A DNA stretch of 64,000 nt from the NCBI GenBank assembly GCA_008107755.1, contig VIRH01000124.1, positions 62,001 to 126,000 on the forward strand. The letters are read 5' to 3'. This stretch comes from Rhodobacterales bacterium. GTDB lineage: Bacteria; Pseudomonadota; Alphaproteobacteria; Rhizobiales; Stappiaceae. The notes beneath the pieces were generated by a model that saw only the letters and a program-made list of their open reading frames with translations, was not told the DNA's origin and did not search any database. The position numbers and the translations under genes were made by a program. This document shows, one piece after another, positions 56,646 to 61,849 of the stretch (position 1 is the stretch's first letter; every line of letters begins with the position of its first letter).

Positions 56646-58052
56646 TCAGAACGGGAACGGCCGTGTCGCAAACTCCGGCTCCATCGCGGGAGTGTTGCGC
56701 AGGCCTCGCTCAACGACACCGGTGAAGAGACGTGATTTGCCGAATTTCGGTTCCCAGCTGCACAAATCCGGCGAAAGCAACTTGATGCAGGGGACACGAA
56801 GATCGTGCCGTGTCGCATCGAACTCCCAAATCTCGATCCCACGTGTCTCGAACGCGTCCAGAAGGTTGCCGAAGGAATGGGAAGTCCGCTCGACTTGACT
56901 GCTTGTGTCGATGGAAGTGACCGACGACAAGGGGAGATCTTCCAGGATCGATTGCGTGCGGGCGTAGCGCAATTGACGCGGCAACTGATCGCCGCCTTTG
57001 TCCCGTCTCTCATGCCGAGGATATGCCTTGTCCATGAGGTCGAGAGCGTTTTCGGACTGAAGCAACTCCTGAATCGCGCTTTCGCAGGCTTTCGCGAGCG
57101 TCCAGTCGGCTGCTGAACCAAAGGCTGCGTTGAAACCATGCCCGTCATGGGAGATGGCGCACGCGACATGCACCGGCAGATCGGTATCGACGATGTAAAA
57201 GCCTCTTTTCCGCGGGGAAACGTCGAGATAGGCCAGCATTTCGGTGGGGAGCAAGTCCGCGAGCAGGCCGTCCCCGATCTCCGTTATCCCCAGGCGGTTG
57301 TACCAAAACTGCGCGACAGCATCGCGTTCGACCAATTCGAGCGCGGCCCGCTCCCGGGCGCCTTCAAGCGTCCTCCACACCGCACAGCCGACAGTCGAGG
57401 CCACAGGGGGCACATTTTCGCCGCCCGGGGTATCGCAATCAAAGAGCACGCAGTAAGCGGGCAACTGTGCTACCTCCCTCGTAGTGACATTCGTGATGGA
57501 AACGCGCGGCAAGTGGGTAGCGCTCCAGATATCCTGCGTTCCCACCCTCTGATCACCGTCTTTCGCAGGCCTGCCAGAAAGCAAGTTTTCCTGCGAGACG
57601 CTGTACCCAAGAAGCGGACCAGCCCCAACCTGTGATTGCCGAGGATCATAAGTAGAGATACGAAGATCTCGGTCAGGTTGCGGAAAAAGACTCATTCTTT
57701 CCGTTAGCTCGCCGACACAACCAAGAGCTGCGTCCGCAGCCGTTCGCCCCTGCCCGCCAGCTGGAACCTTGGAGGGCACCGTGTCGTTTCCACCTTTTCG
57801 TTTCCGGTGATGCGTCAGAAGTGCCGTACAGAACGCGACGGGACATGTATCCCGTCGCTCATAGGGAACGAGCCTGACATCAAAGGCTGCGAGCATCGGC
57901 AAGAAAAGTCCGAGTGATTCGTTACAGCGCATACGCAGCTGCTCCCCACTGCTATCTCGCTCCTCCACAACCAATCCAACACGTATCAAGTCCGCGCAGA
58001 TCGACGAACGTAACGTGTCCCGGGCAACTAAATCACTCGACGCCTGCGACAT
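56646..58052 (-). CDS. YcaO-domain protein, azoline-forming (TOMM/SagD) type
   Basis: ATP-dependent YcaO enzymes activate backbone amides; in TOMM pathways they cyclise Cys/Ser/Thr to azolines. With ATG 58052 the protein is 468 aa (ATG 58067 also possible). ATP/metal-site blocks are in order: AGGQGRTAADAALGCVGELTER (residues about 98-119, read in parts), ERAALELVERDAVAQFWYN (235-253) and FGSAADWTLAKACESAIQELLQ (about 311-332). The C-terminal ends RPFPF, like the PxPxP tail of TOMM cyclodehydratases but one Pro short. No E1-like partner, dehydrogenase or TfuA gene is nearby. Divergent from two NHLP-like peptide genes, its likely substrates. Confidence 0.88.
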   Translation of the reverse strand: MSQASSDLVARDTLRSSICADLIRVGLVVEERDSSGEQLRMRCNESLGLFLPMLAAFDVRLVPYERRDTCPVAFCTALLTHHRKRKGGNDTVPSKVPAGGQGRTAADAALGCVGELTERMSLFPQPDRDLRISTYDPRQSQVGAGPLLGYSVSQENLLSGRPAKDGDQRVGTQDIWSATHLPRVSITNVTTREVAQLPAYCVLFDCDTPGGENVPPVASTVGCAVWRTLEGARERAALELVERDAVAQFWYNRLGITEIGDGLLADLLPTEMLAYLDVSPRKRGFYIVDTDLPVHVACAISHDGHGFNAAFGSAADWTLAKACESAIQELLQSENALDLMDKAYPRHERRDKGGDQLPRQLRYARTQSILEDLPLSSVTSIDTSSQVERTSHSFGNLLDAFETRGIEIWEFDATRHDLRVPCIKLLSPDLCSWEPKFGKSRLFTGVVERGLRNTPAMEPEFATRPFPF

Positions 58053-58183
58053 CCCCACCACTTTCATGCAACCGGACACCACCTGCCCACACCCATGAAT
58101 TGCACATCCTGCATAAAGCAACGTAGCACATTGAAATAATTTCTGAGCCCGAATTAATGTTCTCATGAAAGCGGTCAAGAACA

Positions 58184-58214
58184 AGTAAATGAAAAGAAAA
58201 TGACTTCATTTACT
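58184..58214. promoter_or_regulatory. 10-bp inverted repeat in the ycaO/peptide divergent promoter region
   Basis: AGTAAATGAA (58184-58193) and its exact complement TTCATTTACT (58205-58214), with an 11-base spacer. Placed between ycaO (start 58052) and peptide gene 1 (start 58298), it is suited to be an operator acting on both. AT-rich arms without a T-run make a terminator unlikely. Confidence 0.5.
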
Positions 58215-58297
58215 CAACTTGCCTCTTTTCAGAAACGCCGAGTGCCATCCCATCACGAGGCAGATTATCGACAATCATTATCTTATGGAGGCTCGAA

Positions 58298-58588
58298 ATG
58301 AACATCAAATCGACTTTGAATGCGGAACATGAGATCGGGGTACAGCTTGGTGCGATCATTCAGGACGAGCGCAGCCGTGCGAAGCTGATCGAAAATCCGG
58401 CGGAAGTGCTGTCGGAAATCGGCCTCAGCGCAGACGTGACCCTGCTCGCCGACAAGGCTGACCTGGTTCACCTCCTCATTCCTGCCGAGATCGATGCCGC
58501 ACGCGTTGCTGCCGATGACGAAGCTTATTTCGAAGACCTCGGCAAGGCCGCCCTGGGCACCTGCTACTACGACGATCTGCCTGAATAA
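58298..58588 (+). CDS. NHLP-like RiPP precursor candidate 1
   Basis: A 96 aa acidic protein. Residues about 15-65 resemble the nitrile-hydratase-type leader (NHLP): LGAIIQDERSRAKLIENPAEVLSEIGL, then VHLLIPAEI (read as separate blocks). The C-terminal part reads YFEDLGKAALG followed by TCYYDDLPE; Cys89 is the only cysteine and follows Thr88, both possible heterocyclisation sites. GGAGG stands before ATG 58298, so expression is expected to be strong. It is followed by a hairpin and candidate 2. Precursor status is inferred from similarity to NHLP and from the adjacent ycaO; an independent stress or nitrile-hydratase-like role cannot be excluded. Confidence 0.72.
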   Translation: MNIKSTLNAEHEIGVQLGAIIQDERSRAKLIENPAEVLSEIGLSADVTLLADKADLVHLLIPAEIDAARVAADDEAYFEDLGKAALGTCYYDDLPE

Positions 58589-58620
58589 TTCTGCCGTTTG
58601 CGGCCCCCAAAAGGGCTCGG

Positions 58621-58658
58621 GCACCCGTCTCCCGTTCGCGAAAACCGGGGACGGGTGC
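58621..58658 (+). promoter_or_regulatory. Strong hairpin between the two peptide genes
   Basis: GCACCCGT / ACGGGTGC (8 bp) encloses CCCG / CGGG with a small internal loop. No T-run follows. It could stop decay or set the ratio of the two peptide messages. Confidence 0.6.
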
Positions 58659-58677
58659 GTCGCAGAGAGAGGATCAC

Positions 58678-58959
58678 ATGGCACGCTTTCCGTACTATCC
58701 CAAGAATGTAGCCGCTCTCGGACGCCTGATTGCGCGTGCGCGCCTGGATGAGGCGTTCGCACAGCAATTGCGCAATGATCCGAAGAAGGTTCTCAAGGCT
58801 GCGGGTCTGCCGGATCAAACCATCGAACTTATCGATTTCAGGATCGTGGATGCCAGGCTCGCTCCCGACGCACGCGTACTCCCCTATCGCCTGAATTCCA
58901 GGAAGCTAAGTGAGGGCGATGCGGATTATGTTTCAGGCGTCGCCAGGCTGCTGTGTTGA
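58678..58959 (+). CDS. NHLP-like RiPP precursor candidate 2
   Basis: A 93 aa basic protein with the NHLP pattern: LDEAFAQQLRNDPKKVLKAAGL (residues 23-44), IVDARLAPDARVLPY, like the end of nitrile hydratase alpha subunit, then KLSEGDADYVSGVARLLC. The last residue, Cys93, is the only cysteine. In NHLP precursors an LSDEELxxVxGG-like element marks the leader end; here LSEGDADYVSG may be its remnant, leaving a very short core. AGAGAGG lies before ATG 58678. The stop is 9 bp from the stop of the converging regulator gene. Confidence 0.7.
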   Translation: MARFPYYPKNVAALGRLIARARLDEAFAQQLRNDPKKVLKAAGLPDQTIELIDFRIVDARLAPDARVLPYRLNSRKLSEGDADYVSGVARLLC

Positions 58960-58968
58960 GTTGCGCTC

Positions 58969-60957
58969 TCAGCCGGCCCGATTGAAGAGCATCTGCTGCA
59001 CCAGCTGTGCCCCCCTGTCAAAATTCGCGCGCACGCGGCGGTCCTGAAAGAAGTTGATCTTCTGCCGCCACTGCTCCGGTTCCATCTCAAGCACCTGATG
59101 CGAATTGACAAGCTGGTTGCGCTTTTCGCCGAAGTTTCTGAGTGTCGCGGCCGCTTCCTTCTCGCGGCCGGAACAGACCAGCGCTGCGACGCGGGTCGTC
59201 AGACAACCAAGACTGACTCCTGTACCGCGTTCGATCTGCACGATTGCGTTTTCATAGTCGCCAGCGGCGAAGTAGATGTTTGCCAGGTACTCATAGAATA
59301 CGCGCGGCACGAATGCGAACAGACGAAACGCGCGCGACGCCGTCTCACGCGCCTCATGCACATCCCCTGACAGCGCAAGCCCCTCGGCCACGGACATCAG
59401 GTTTGCCGGGTCGGCTGAACTCAGCCTGCCCGCATTCTGAAACGCGCGCCTTGCCTCTTCCGGCATGCTGGAGAGGATCAGTGACCAGCCGTAGACGCGC
59501 TGGTTCACCGCCTGCCATGGGTCGAGAACGATTGCCCGCTCGGCAACATTCAAAAGGCCGTTGATGCCGTTCGACGGCGATTTGTCATGATCCAGGAAGT
59601 GCAGCTCCCGCTTCATGATGATTGACGCCTTGCCGGCATAGGTCATGGAAAAAGACGGGTGCGTCCGTTCCAGCTCGTCGAGGATCTGCATCGCCTTTCT
59701 GTCCGACTGGGGCGTGAAATCCCAAAGCAACGCGTCCGCCTGACACCAGCGCGCAAACACCGCCGTCTTGGCCGGGTTTCTAAGCCGATCGGTTGCGAAC
59801 ACATGAATGCGGCTGACAATCTGGCTTGCGGCCGTTTCGACGTCATCCCAAAGTCTCAGATCGACGATTTCATTAAAAACGATCTGACCGTTGGTCCTGT
59901 CCTCGAACTGGACCACGATTTTTCCCGATCGCTCATCATGACGGAAGCGCAGCATATAGCTTCCGAGTTCATGCCCCTCGAGGAGCGTCGCCCTCGGCAT
60001 GTTTTCATCGCCGAAATACTCGGCCTCGTAAAGGTCGAAGGACCGGAAGGACGACAGGCCCGACACGATCTCCTCGCGCAGCTGAACAGCATCCTGCAGC
60101 CCCTGCCGGAAGAGAGAAGACGAAACGATTGAAATTTCGGGCAGCCGGATCACATCGTCCTGAAGCGTTGCCAGAAAACCGGTCGGCGTCAGATCCCCTT
60201 GCGTGCGAGCGGTAAAGGACTCCCGCCCCTGCGTTTCGTCCGTTTCCAAAAGCTTCCGGGTTTCCGCATCCGGCTCCGCATCCAGATGAAGGCGCATCTC
60301 GCGTTCACAGGTCTTGTATTGCTGGAGCGCTCGATCTCCTTGTCCGAGCCTCATGTAAAGGCGGATCAGCAACCTGTGCGCCGTTTCGTGCGCTGGATCT
60401 ATCTTCAGAAGAAACCTTGCGCCTGCCTCTATCTGAACACCGCCGTCGTCGGTCTGGATCTGGTTGAGGTGTCGGAGCGCAGCTGTGGTTACCTCGGACC
60501 GCACGCGCTCTCTTTCCACCATCAGCCAGTCGGAGAGTTCCGAATCGAGGTCCTCGTAACCAGCCATGAAATCGCCGCGCCATAGCTCCTCTGCTTCGGC
60601 GAAGTCTTCCGCGAAGCCGCGCTCCAGAAGCGACAGAATATGGAAAAGATCCGATGTAAAAACGGCAGGATCGAGCTGTGCGTGACCGCTCGACGTCAGT
60701 GTCACGTCGAAACCGGCCTCCTGCTCGGCCGTTTTCAGCTGCCTCAGCGCCTGGCGCAGCGACTGCATTGCCTTTTGTCGTTCGGCGCCGCTCCACAGGA
60801 GATCGGCAAGAGCTTCACGTGGCGCGCTCATGCCTGGCATGCGGCACAGATAGCCCATGATCGCCAGGGCTTTCCGGGTTTTAACGGACACGGGGTCGCG
60901 ATCATTGCCCAGAAGCAATGGTCTGCCGACACAAGCAAAGCAGGATGCGTTTGCCAT
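58969..60957 (-). CDS. SARP-like regulator: winged helix, BTAD and C-terminal TPR-like region
   Basis: A 662 aa regulator. Residues 1-90 form an OmpR-like winged helix (VKTRKALAIMGYLC, REALADLLWSGAERQKAMQSLRQAL). Residues about 95-240 are the bacterial transcriptional activator domain (ELWRGDFMAGYEDLDSELSDWL, then HETAHRLLIRLYMRLGQGDRALQQY). A middle domain of about 150 residues follows (FRSFDLYEAEYFG, LRFRHDERSGKIVVQFEDR), then helical repeats of TPR type up to the C-terminus. In actinomycetes SARPs switch on natural-product clusters; here it is the only regulator at the locus. GGGGAATTG precedes ATG 60957. Target genes are inferred. Confidence 0.85.
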   Translation of the reverse strand: MANASCFACVGRPLLLGNDRDPVSVKTRKALAIMGYLCRMPGMSAPREALADLLWSGAERQKAMQSLRQALRQLKTAEQEAGFDVTLTSSGHAQLDPAVFTSDLFHILSLLERGFAEDFAEAEELWRGDFMAGYEDLDSELSDWLMVERERVRSEVTTAALRHLNQIQTDDGGVQIEAGARFLLKIDPAHETAHRLLIRLYMRLGQGDRALQQYKTCEREMRLHLDAEPDAETRKLLETDETQGRESFTARTQGDLTPTGFLATLQDDVIRLPEISIVSSSLFRQGLQDAVQLREEIVSGLSSFRSFDLYEAEYFGDENMPRATLLEGHELGSYMLRFRHDERSGKIVVQFEDRTNGQIVFNEIVDLRLWDDVETAASQIVSRIHVFATDRLRNPAKTAVFARWCQADALLWDFTPQSDRKAMQILDELERTHPSFSMTYAGKASIIMKRELHFLDHDKSPSNGINGLLNVAERAIVLDPWQAVNQRVYGWSLILSSMPEEARRAFQNAGRLSSADPANLMSVAEGLALSGDVHEARETASRAFRLFAFVPRVFYEYLANIYFAAGDYENAIVQIERGTGVSLGCLTTRVAALVCSGREKEAAATLRNFGEKRNQLVNSHQVLEMEPEQWRQKINFFQDRRVRANFDRGAQLVQQMLFNRAG

Positions 60958-61038
60958 CAATTCCCCGTATTTCAGTCGCAACCTTGATGACGTGCGGGTT
61001 GCGGGCAAGAATTCCAAGTTCAGACGTTAAACATAGTT

Positions 61039-61057
61039 TATCACGCTCGTATCACGC
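61039..61057. promoter_or_regulatory. Direct repeat with 11-bp period upstream of the SARP-like gene
   Basis: TATCACGC occurs at 61039-61046 and again at 61050-61057. SARP proteins bind heptamer direct repeats with 11-bp (or 22-bp) period. A TATAGT that could be a -10 box for the 85 aa gene is at 61073-61078. The region lies between the divergent regulator and the 85 aa gene. Confidence 0.42.
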
Positions 61058-61135
61058 CGCAACAGCATGCTTTATAGTGGATGGTCACAGCAGCCAGGCT
61101 GCATTCGGCGAAACTAATACCGGTGGGTGAGTATT

Positions 61136-61393
61136 ATGTCTAAAAACGTTGACAAACCGGACCTTGCGGACAGCGATCGGGAGCCGGCCGTGGAAGCGAT
61201 CAAACGTATGATCCGCTACACGAAAAAGGAAGCGGACAAGGACGGTCGCACGTTCTGTTCCTACTGCCTCGACATGGCTCTACAATCTCTCGATGACGGA
61301 TCGGAAGATCTGGATACGCTGCTTAAAACCAAGATCACACCGCTGATGGTCGGCCAGCAGAAATCGGGTTCGGGCAAAAACGACACGTTCTGA
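61136..61393 (+). CDS. Small CxxC protein of unknown function at the RiPP locus
   Basis: An 85 aa highly charged protein, unrecognised. Main features: an acidic N-terminus (KPDLADSDREPAVE), a helix IKRMIRYTKKEADKDG, then TFCSYCLDMALQSL with a CxxC pair, and a Lys/Ser/Gly tail. No signal or membrane segment. ATG 61136 has GTGAG upstream; a GTG at 61127 is in frame too. It is divergent from the SARP-like gene. It might be an accessory protein or a third peptide substrate, but nothing proves it belongs to the locus. Confidence 0.6.
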   Translation: MSKNVDKPDLADSDREPAVEAIKRMIRYTKKEADKDGRTFCSYCLDMALQSLDDGSEDLDTLLKTKITPLMVGQQKSGSGKNDTF

Positions 61394-61772: not shown

Positions 61773-61849
61773 TGGCGACCCCGACAGGATTCGAACCTGT
61801 GACCATTCGCTTAGAAGGCGAGTGCTCTATCCAGCTGAGCTACGGGGCC
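61773..61849 (-). tRNA. tRNA-Arg (TCT)
   Basis: On the minus strand acceptor GGCCCCG / CGGGGTC pairs (one G-T), discriminator G, CCA encoded. The anticodon loop CTTCTAA contains TCT (complement of 61813-61815). T-arm GGTTCGAATCC is standard. Confidence 0.97.

Follow-up and report, generated by a model that had tools for sequence, protein, structure and literature searches.

The window, a 64,000-nucleotide stretch (positions 62001-126000 of contig C60) of a 6.1 Mb source genome (G000), harbors a standalone TOMM-type YcaO gene, two genes encoding NHLP-like peptides and a gene for a SARP/BTAD-TPR regulator (Table 1), confirming the observation made in an earlier note on this DNA. The YcaO gene is the single PF02624 match in the source genome.

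Table 1. Coordinates of the YcaO locus and adjoining features in the window
Feature	Coordinates	Strand	Details
Standalone YcaO, cyanobactin/NHLP (LynD/TruD) type	56646..58067	-	473 aa from ATG 58067; C-terminus RPFPF
Conserved two-hairpin/inverted-repeat element	58160..58277	+	between divergent ycaO and peptide 1
Peptide 1, NHLP-like precursor	58298..58588	+	96 aa; tail T-C-Y-Y-D-D-L-P-E; Cys89
Peptide 2, peptide-1 paralogue lacking the Cys tail	58678..58959	+	93 aa
SARP-type regulator, BTAD and TPRs	58969..60957	-	probable start ATG 60957; listed ORF opens at TTG 61017
Small 'CxxC' gene	61127-61393		independent neighbour of the module
tRNA gene	61776-61849	-	between the CxxC-type gene and the next genes

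As listed, the YcaO frame (56646-58184, minus strand) opens at TTG 58184, an unlikely start; ATG 58067 or 58052 fits better and is the more likely choice. The protein exceeds the PF02624 cut-off (E 4e-37) and reaches 93 bits against TIGR03604, below that model's 219-bit cut-off, and all 33 YcaO rows match TIGR03604. The Glu, Arg, Asp and Gln site positions are invariant in the 33 rows, and LynD and TruD are by far the best solved relatives in profile and fold comparison, supporting the earlier identification of an azoline-type YcaO with ATP-site blocks. The window YcaO resembles the cyclodehydratase half of LynD/TruD without their N-terminal ~300 residues, and the part of LynD that is missing here is presumably the RRE and most of the E1-like domain. 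The ribosomal-S12 YcaO model NF040716 was not matched by the window YcaO at E<=1, and E. coli YcaO reached only 0.006 in a profile search with it; an S12/RimO-associated identity, the grouping that the earlier note had named as contrary to its reading, is thus rejected in that note's favor. No E1-like partner (TIGR03882) was detected at the locus or in any of the six genomes searched, in agreement with the stated lack of an E1-like/ocin-ThiF protein, although TIGR03882 is a weak detector whose controls score only below the cut-off, and therefore a diverged partner could be missed.

Conservation of the locus across genomes

A YcaO search of 121 genomes returned some match in 62. Within the genus (Roseibium/Labrenzia by named hits, the source genome counted), YcaO occurs in 42 of 45 genomes, at 36-52% identity in the others, and ycaO, peptide 1, peptide 2 and SARP are all present in 42 of 45. 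Among the 36 enlarged loci (L032-L067, from other genomes, 30 of the genus and 6 of the family), every one carries ycaO, peptide 1, peptide 2, SARP and the small CxxC-type gene in the window's order beside a glycosyltransferase-like flank, with other flanking genes in some; the SARP reading frame is split in L035. For the remaining 11 genus genomes, the four-gene check used 4.3 kb loci in 10 and, for G001, locus L090, which was equated with it from its contig number and coordinates. Averaged across the 30 genus loci, identity to the window is 44% for YcaO, 56% for peptide 1, 46% for peptide 2, 57% for SARP and 69% for the glycosyltransferase-like flank, and the chromosomal position of the locus is fixed within the genus. 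The conserved block of the 36 enlarged loci contains no transporter, peptidase or immunity gene, as had been noted from the window alone. These data indicate that the YcaO/two-peptide/SARP locus first described from the window is genuine and conserved, and that it forms a RiPP-type module of unusually small size.

Three genus genomes (G015, G016 and G038) lack YcaO. G015 and G016 have none of the four genes but retain the flanks and the CxxC-type gene, and G038 (locus L146) retains SARP alone beside the usual flanks and the CxxC-type gene, with YcaO and both peptides missing. Because G015 and G016 keep the CxxC-type gene without the other four, the unit consists of those four, with the CxxC-type gene as a neighbour. 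The second Cys of the CxxC protein is found in only 8 of 37 relatives (the remainder have F or L there), and the protein matches no Pfam or NCBIfam model. Its membership in the system, which the earlier note had proposed, is therefore rejected.

A peptide-1 alignment scan, from which records of the source genome were possibly omitted, yielded 32 named loci, mostly of Roseibium/Labrenzia, with two of Pannonibacter, one of Stappia sp. and one of an 'Alphaproteobacteria bacterium'. In locus L068, from another family of the same order, the genes for SARP, a single Cys-terminal NHLP-like peptide and YcaO are arranged and oriented as in the window. In a 46-row YcaO tree, in which the root and long branches are uncertain, the 16 peptide-1-type YcaOs, among them that of L068, group together with 99/98 support and do so in 100% of 200 bootstrap trees.

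The two peptides and the intergenic element

The tail of peptide 1 contains a Cys in 38 of 38 relatives, at the eighth position from the end in 35, and a Tyr at Cys+2 in 36. Its assignment to a known family is weaker: the window peptide matches TIGR03793 at E 0.003, and its scores of 17 and 14 bits against TIGR03793 and NF038399 lie below the curated cut-offs of 50.9 and 40. Among the 27 of 38 relatives scanned, 13 match TIGR03793 at E<=0.05, 6 match the competing model IniB_NTERM (best 6e-5, versus 2e-4 for TIGR03793) and only 2 match PF02979; the peptide-1 profile picks up a genuine nitrile hydratase alpha chain (1e-5). A GG-type leader cleavage site is not found in peptide 1, which has AL(G/A)xC at that place, and its predicted structure is weak (pLDDT 71, pTM 0.44).

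Peptide 2 aligns with peptide 1 in hhalign (98.4%, E 1e-14), and the alignment stops at the Cys of peptide 1, so that peptide 2 ends at the point where the conserved tail starts. It matches NF038399 (7e-7) and TIGR03793 (1e-6), at 28-29 bits against the same curated cut-offs; TIGR03793 is matched at E<=0.05 by 12 of the 14 relatives scanned (of 37), and IniB_NTERM by 5 of the 14. Peptide 2 likewise has no GG-type leader cleavage site, and a Cys lies within the last 12 residues in just 4 of 37 relatives, so peptide 2 is rejected as a Cys substrate. The initial description of one Cys in each peptide thus holds as a conserved trait for peptide 1 only, and its proposal that both peptides are YcaO substrates is not supported for peptide 2; we infer that peptide 1 is the substrate. 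As for the NHLP-like character, the TIGR03793 and NF038399 matches agree with it, while every score is below its curated cut-off and IniB_NTERM competes. On whether the peptides belong to unrelated families and fail to co-occur with ycaO, co-occurrence is clear, and the family side is only partly favorable because all NHLP scores are sub-cut-off.

A second, distal pair of peptide 1 and peptide 2 genes, with the Cys kept, occurs at L097:8001-8770 and L098:7962-8668; the fetched stretches contain no YcaO, and these genomes have YcaO elsewhere. L112 and L114, from another alphaproteobacterial genus, contain tandem NHLP/nitrile-hydratase-alpha-like ORFs, and YcaO and SARP were not detected in the fetched 20 kb.

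The region between ycaO and peptide 1 also contains a conserved element. RNAalifold returned an empty consensus on the first MAFFT alignment, so the structure was taken from the own fold of L042. Covariation was tested against 500 shuffles, with 17 loci aligned by MAFFT without use of structure; L042 is one of the 17 sequences, which favours the tested structure, and 78.6% of cells pair, versus 75.3 in shuffled and 28-43% in slid controls. Two-sided changes occur in 11 of 29 pairs (shuffled 6.0, as high in 1 of 500; slid versions 5-8), and the covariation score is 0.146 versus 0.106 (reached by 0 of 500 shuffles). The further pair types, 26 versus 23.3, are the unstriking one of five measures, being reached by 39 of 500 shuffles. 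Over 38 loci, the peptide strand has a mean folding z of -2.86, with 25 loci below -2, and the opposite strand a mean of -1.73, with 17 below -2. A covariance model scores 77 bits at the window element, its sole place in the source genome, and recovers, on the peptide strand, 26 of the 53 sources (9 of the 26 from outside the training set), missing the distal pairs and the remainder, mostly more diverged loci. Across 12 whole genomes, with 150 candidates per genome scored, it matches in 8, solely at the ycaO-peptide 1 place, and gives no match in G015 and G016 (module absent) or in G003 and G007 (diverged). Rfam holds no relevant match at E<=5, and a perfect 8-bp inverted repeat lies upstream of peptide 1 in only some of the 38 loci. 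Judged from these patterns, the element may be either an RNA leader or a DNA operator.

SARP-linked YcaO genes in other alphaproteobacteria

The regulator contains a BTAD domain (7e-11, above cut-off) and TPRs; for the N-terminal winged helix expected of a SARP, the Trans_reg_C match is only 0.045. It accompanies the YcaO and peptide genes in the 42 genus genomes, in agreement with the earlier note. A full-length relative is absent in G015 and G016, which have no YcaO, and stands alone in G038. The protein had been considered unusual for an alphaproteobacterium, but it is not isolated, as relatives adjoin standalone YcaO genes in other alphaproteobacteria.

The YcaO alignment was searched against 385 and 398 genomes, and all 35 loci besides the window's own were examined. 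A SARP is found in the 1.5 kb flanks of 9 of the 17 standalone (short) YcaO frames versus 0 of 18 long ones, under our own division at 560/690 aa, with two short frames running off a contig end and the upstream flanks of long frames being largely the YcaO protein itself. YcaO and SARP without peptide 1 occur in 25 of 32 larger loci, each from another genome, three of the 25 SARP matches being weak (5e-13 to 6e-25). A relative of a haem-peroxidase-like protein is encoded in 18 of these 25 loci, six of the 18 having been among the profile's seven seeds, and a neighbour protein with a penultimate Cys (19/19), typically DYT[IV]xxC[ATSG], in 19, three of which were seeds; 15 of the 18 peroxidase-linked loci have such a neighbour. 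The peroxidase-linked loci are L069-L071, L115, L117, L119, L124, L125, L149, L190-L192 and L195-L200. PF03098 matches two of four peroxidase-like proteins above its cut-off and one below, and one (L070) not at all. The penultimate-Cys family shows no detectable relation to peptide 1 (hhalign 0.2%) and a weak relation, if any, to peptide 2 (30%), and no NCBIfam model matches either of its two scanned members. In the 46-row tree, 7 changes are required for the 13 peroxidase-linked YcaOs and 3 for the 9 fused ones, so neither set forms one clade, and the peroxidase-linked L190 and L191 are placed beside fused YcaOs. These loci are possibly a RiPP class of their own.

L147 and L148 carry SARP relatives, and their fetched stretches contain no YcaO; in L147 a peroxidase-like gene adjoins the SARP. 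PF03098 has no match in 3 of 11 genomes searched, and its sole match in the source genome lies on another contig (C142), so a haem peroxidase is rejected as a partner of the window locus.

Proposed product and relation to known systems

On the basis of sequence comparison, the product is most likely a peptide that bears a single azoline, is made under SARP control and has an endogenous role; peptide 2 would be a core-less accessory. The explanation to which we lean, with modest confidence, is a four-gene RiPP locus in which YcaO would form a thiazoline at Cys89 of peptide 1 under SARP control and the product would remain inside its maker. The NHLP part of peptide 1 would serve as the leader, and YcaO with ATP would cyclize Cys89 onto the preceding backbone carbonyl, yielding one thiazoline in a nine-residue tail. 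Since no E1-like/RRE partner was found, YcaO may bind the leader by itself, perhaps via an extra N-terminal mini-domain, or with the help of peptide 2. The SARP would activate the divergent ycaO/peptide promoter region, and the product may serve as a signal, as a cofactor (redox or metal) or as a small protein in modified form. An internal product is more likely than an antibiotic because the tail is conserved over the family and the block has no transporter, peptidase or immunity gene; the strong conservation of the locus likewise hints that the product serves its maker and is not an antibiotic of the usual sort. Co-occurrence in 42 of 45 genus genomes, the joint loss of the four genes from G015 and G016 with their flanks retained, LynD/TruD kinship, the fixed Cys and Tyr, the L068 arrangement, the single YcaO group (99/98), the Cys kept in the distal L097/L098 pairs and the SARP association (9/17 vs 0/18) count for this explanation, against the sub-cut-off NHLP and TIGR03604 scores, the IniB_NTERM rivalry, the SARP-only G038, the lack of a block protease or transporter, the L097/L098 peptides lying away from YcaO and the weakness of TIGR03882.

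A more tentative proposal is a RiPP type in which the standalone YcaO receives its substrate from core-less peptide 2 in place of an E1-like/RRE protein, giving a conserved single-heterocycle peptide with an endogenous function; the locus may then belong, as one branch, to a broader YcaO-SARP class of alphaproteobacteria whose other branches are coupled to an animal-haem-peroxidase-like enzyme and penultimate-Cys precursors. It is unlikely that YcaO makes another bond on peptide 1, a backbone thioamide or amidine with no azoline. Some YcaOs without an E1-like partner form thioamides or amidines, the YcaO here is standalone, and TIGR03266 (McrA thioamidation) matches 20 of the 33 YcaO rows, though at 18 bits in the window; TfuA is encoded in three of six genomes searched, far from the locus in each, but is absent from the source genome and the two others, the closest solved relatives by far are the azoline makers LynD and TruD, and the fixed Cys is an azoline requirement. 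Quite improbable is a YcaO acting on an unlinked protein, with peptides 1 and 2 as regulatory or structural NHLP-fold proteins: the core-less peptide 2, the weak NHLP scores and the SARP-only G038 would fit, but the Cys of peptide 1 holds its tail position in 38 of 38 relatives, L068 repeats the arrangement with one Cys-terminal peptide, and Cys-terminal proteins adjoin other YcaO-SARP pairs. Least probable is an ordinary antimicrobial TOMM, exported to kill competitors, even though secondary metabolism accounts for most characterized NHLP/TOMM products and SARP-controlled clusters. Against it stand the fixed chromosomal place in the genus, the block without transporter, peptidase or immunity gene, and a tail near-invariant over the family, versus the hypervariable NHLP and Nif11 cores reported in PMC4603692.

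A search of titles and abstracts found no published description of the locus. Two papers mention, for Labrenzia PHM005, one bacteriocin/RiPP cluster called by antiSMASH and not specified further (PMC6855096) and, for two strains of Roseibium album, multiple clusters labelled RiPP-like (PMC9860996); the locus may therefore already carry a generic automatic label. YcaO action without a leader-binding partner is poorly understood, and the locus provides a very small natural test bed, with one YcaO, one conserved Cys and one accessory peptide, in a genus of marine bacteria with cultured members. The conserved core would indicate a physiological YcaO product, and the YcaO-SARP association offers a mining hook for more clusters, the haem-peroxidase ones included.

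PQQ and mycofactocin also derive from a short conserved core in a small precursor and have an endogenous role, but the likeness is an analogy only, with radical-SAM chemistry there and YcaO here. Relative to LynD and TruD (4v1t-v, 4bs9), the window YcaO begins at about LynD residue 301, and the proteases of cyanobactin systems are not in the Roseibium locus. Proteusin precursors (DprE2, 9cjx) give a match, which is no proof of membership, and proteusin enzymes are not in the locus. In PMC4603692, TOMMs with a stand-alone D protein are described, and NHLP-type D proteins group with cyanobactin ones. The same paper describes a YcaO system that, like the Roseibium locus, lacks a C protein, but it has two YcaO genes, methyltransferases and radical-SAM proteins, none of which is in the Roseibium block, and its precursors are unrelated to the Roseibium peptides. 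NHLP-type TOMM clusters including NHLP-Burk (Haft 2010; Cox 2015, PMC4603692) share NHLP-like precursors with the locus, and NHLP-Burk also has tandem precursor genes; those clusters have hypervariable cores, whereas the Roseibium locus has a conserved single-Cys tail, one tail-less peptide and no C (E1-like) protein found. The locus thus stands apart among NHLP/TOMM systems in that its YcaO is standalone, its second peptide has no core, its single-Cys tail is conserved and a SARP is present.
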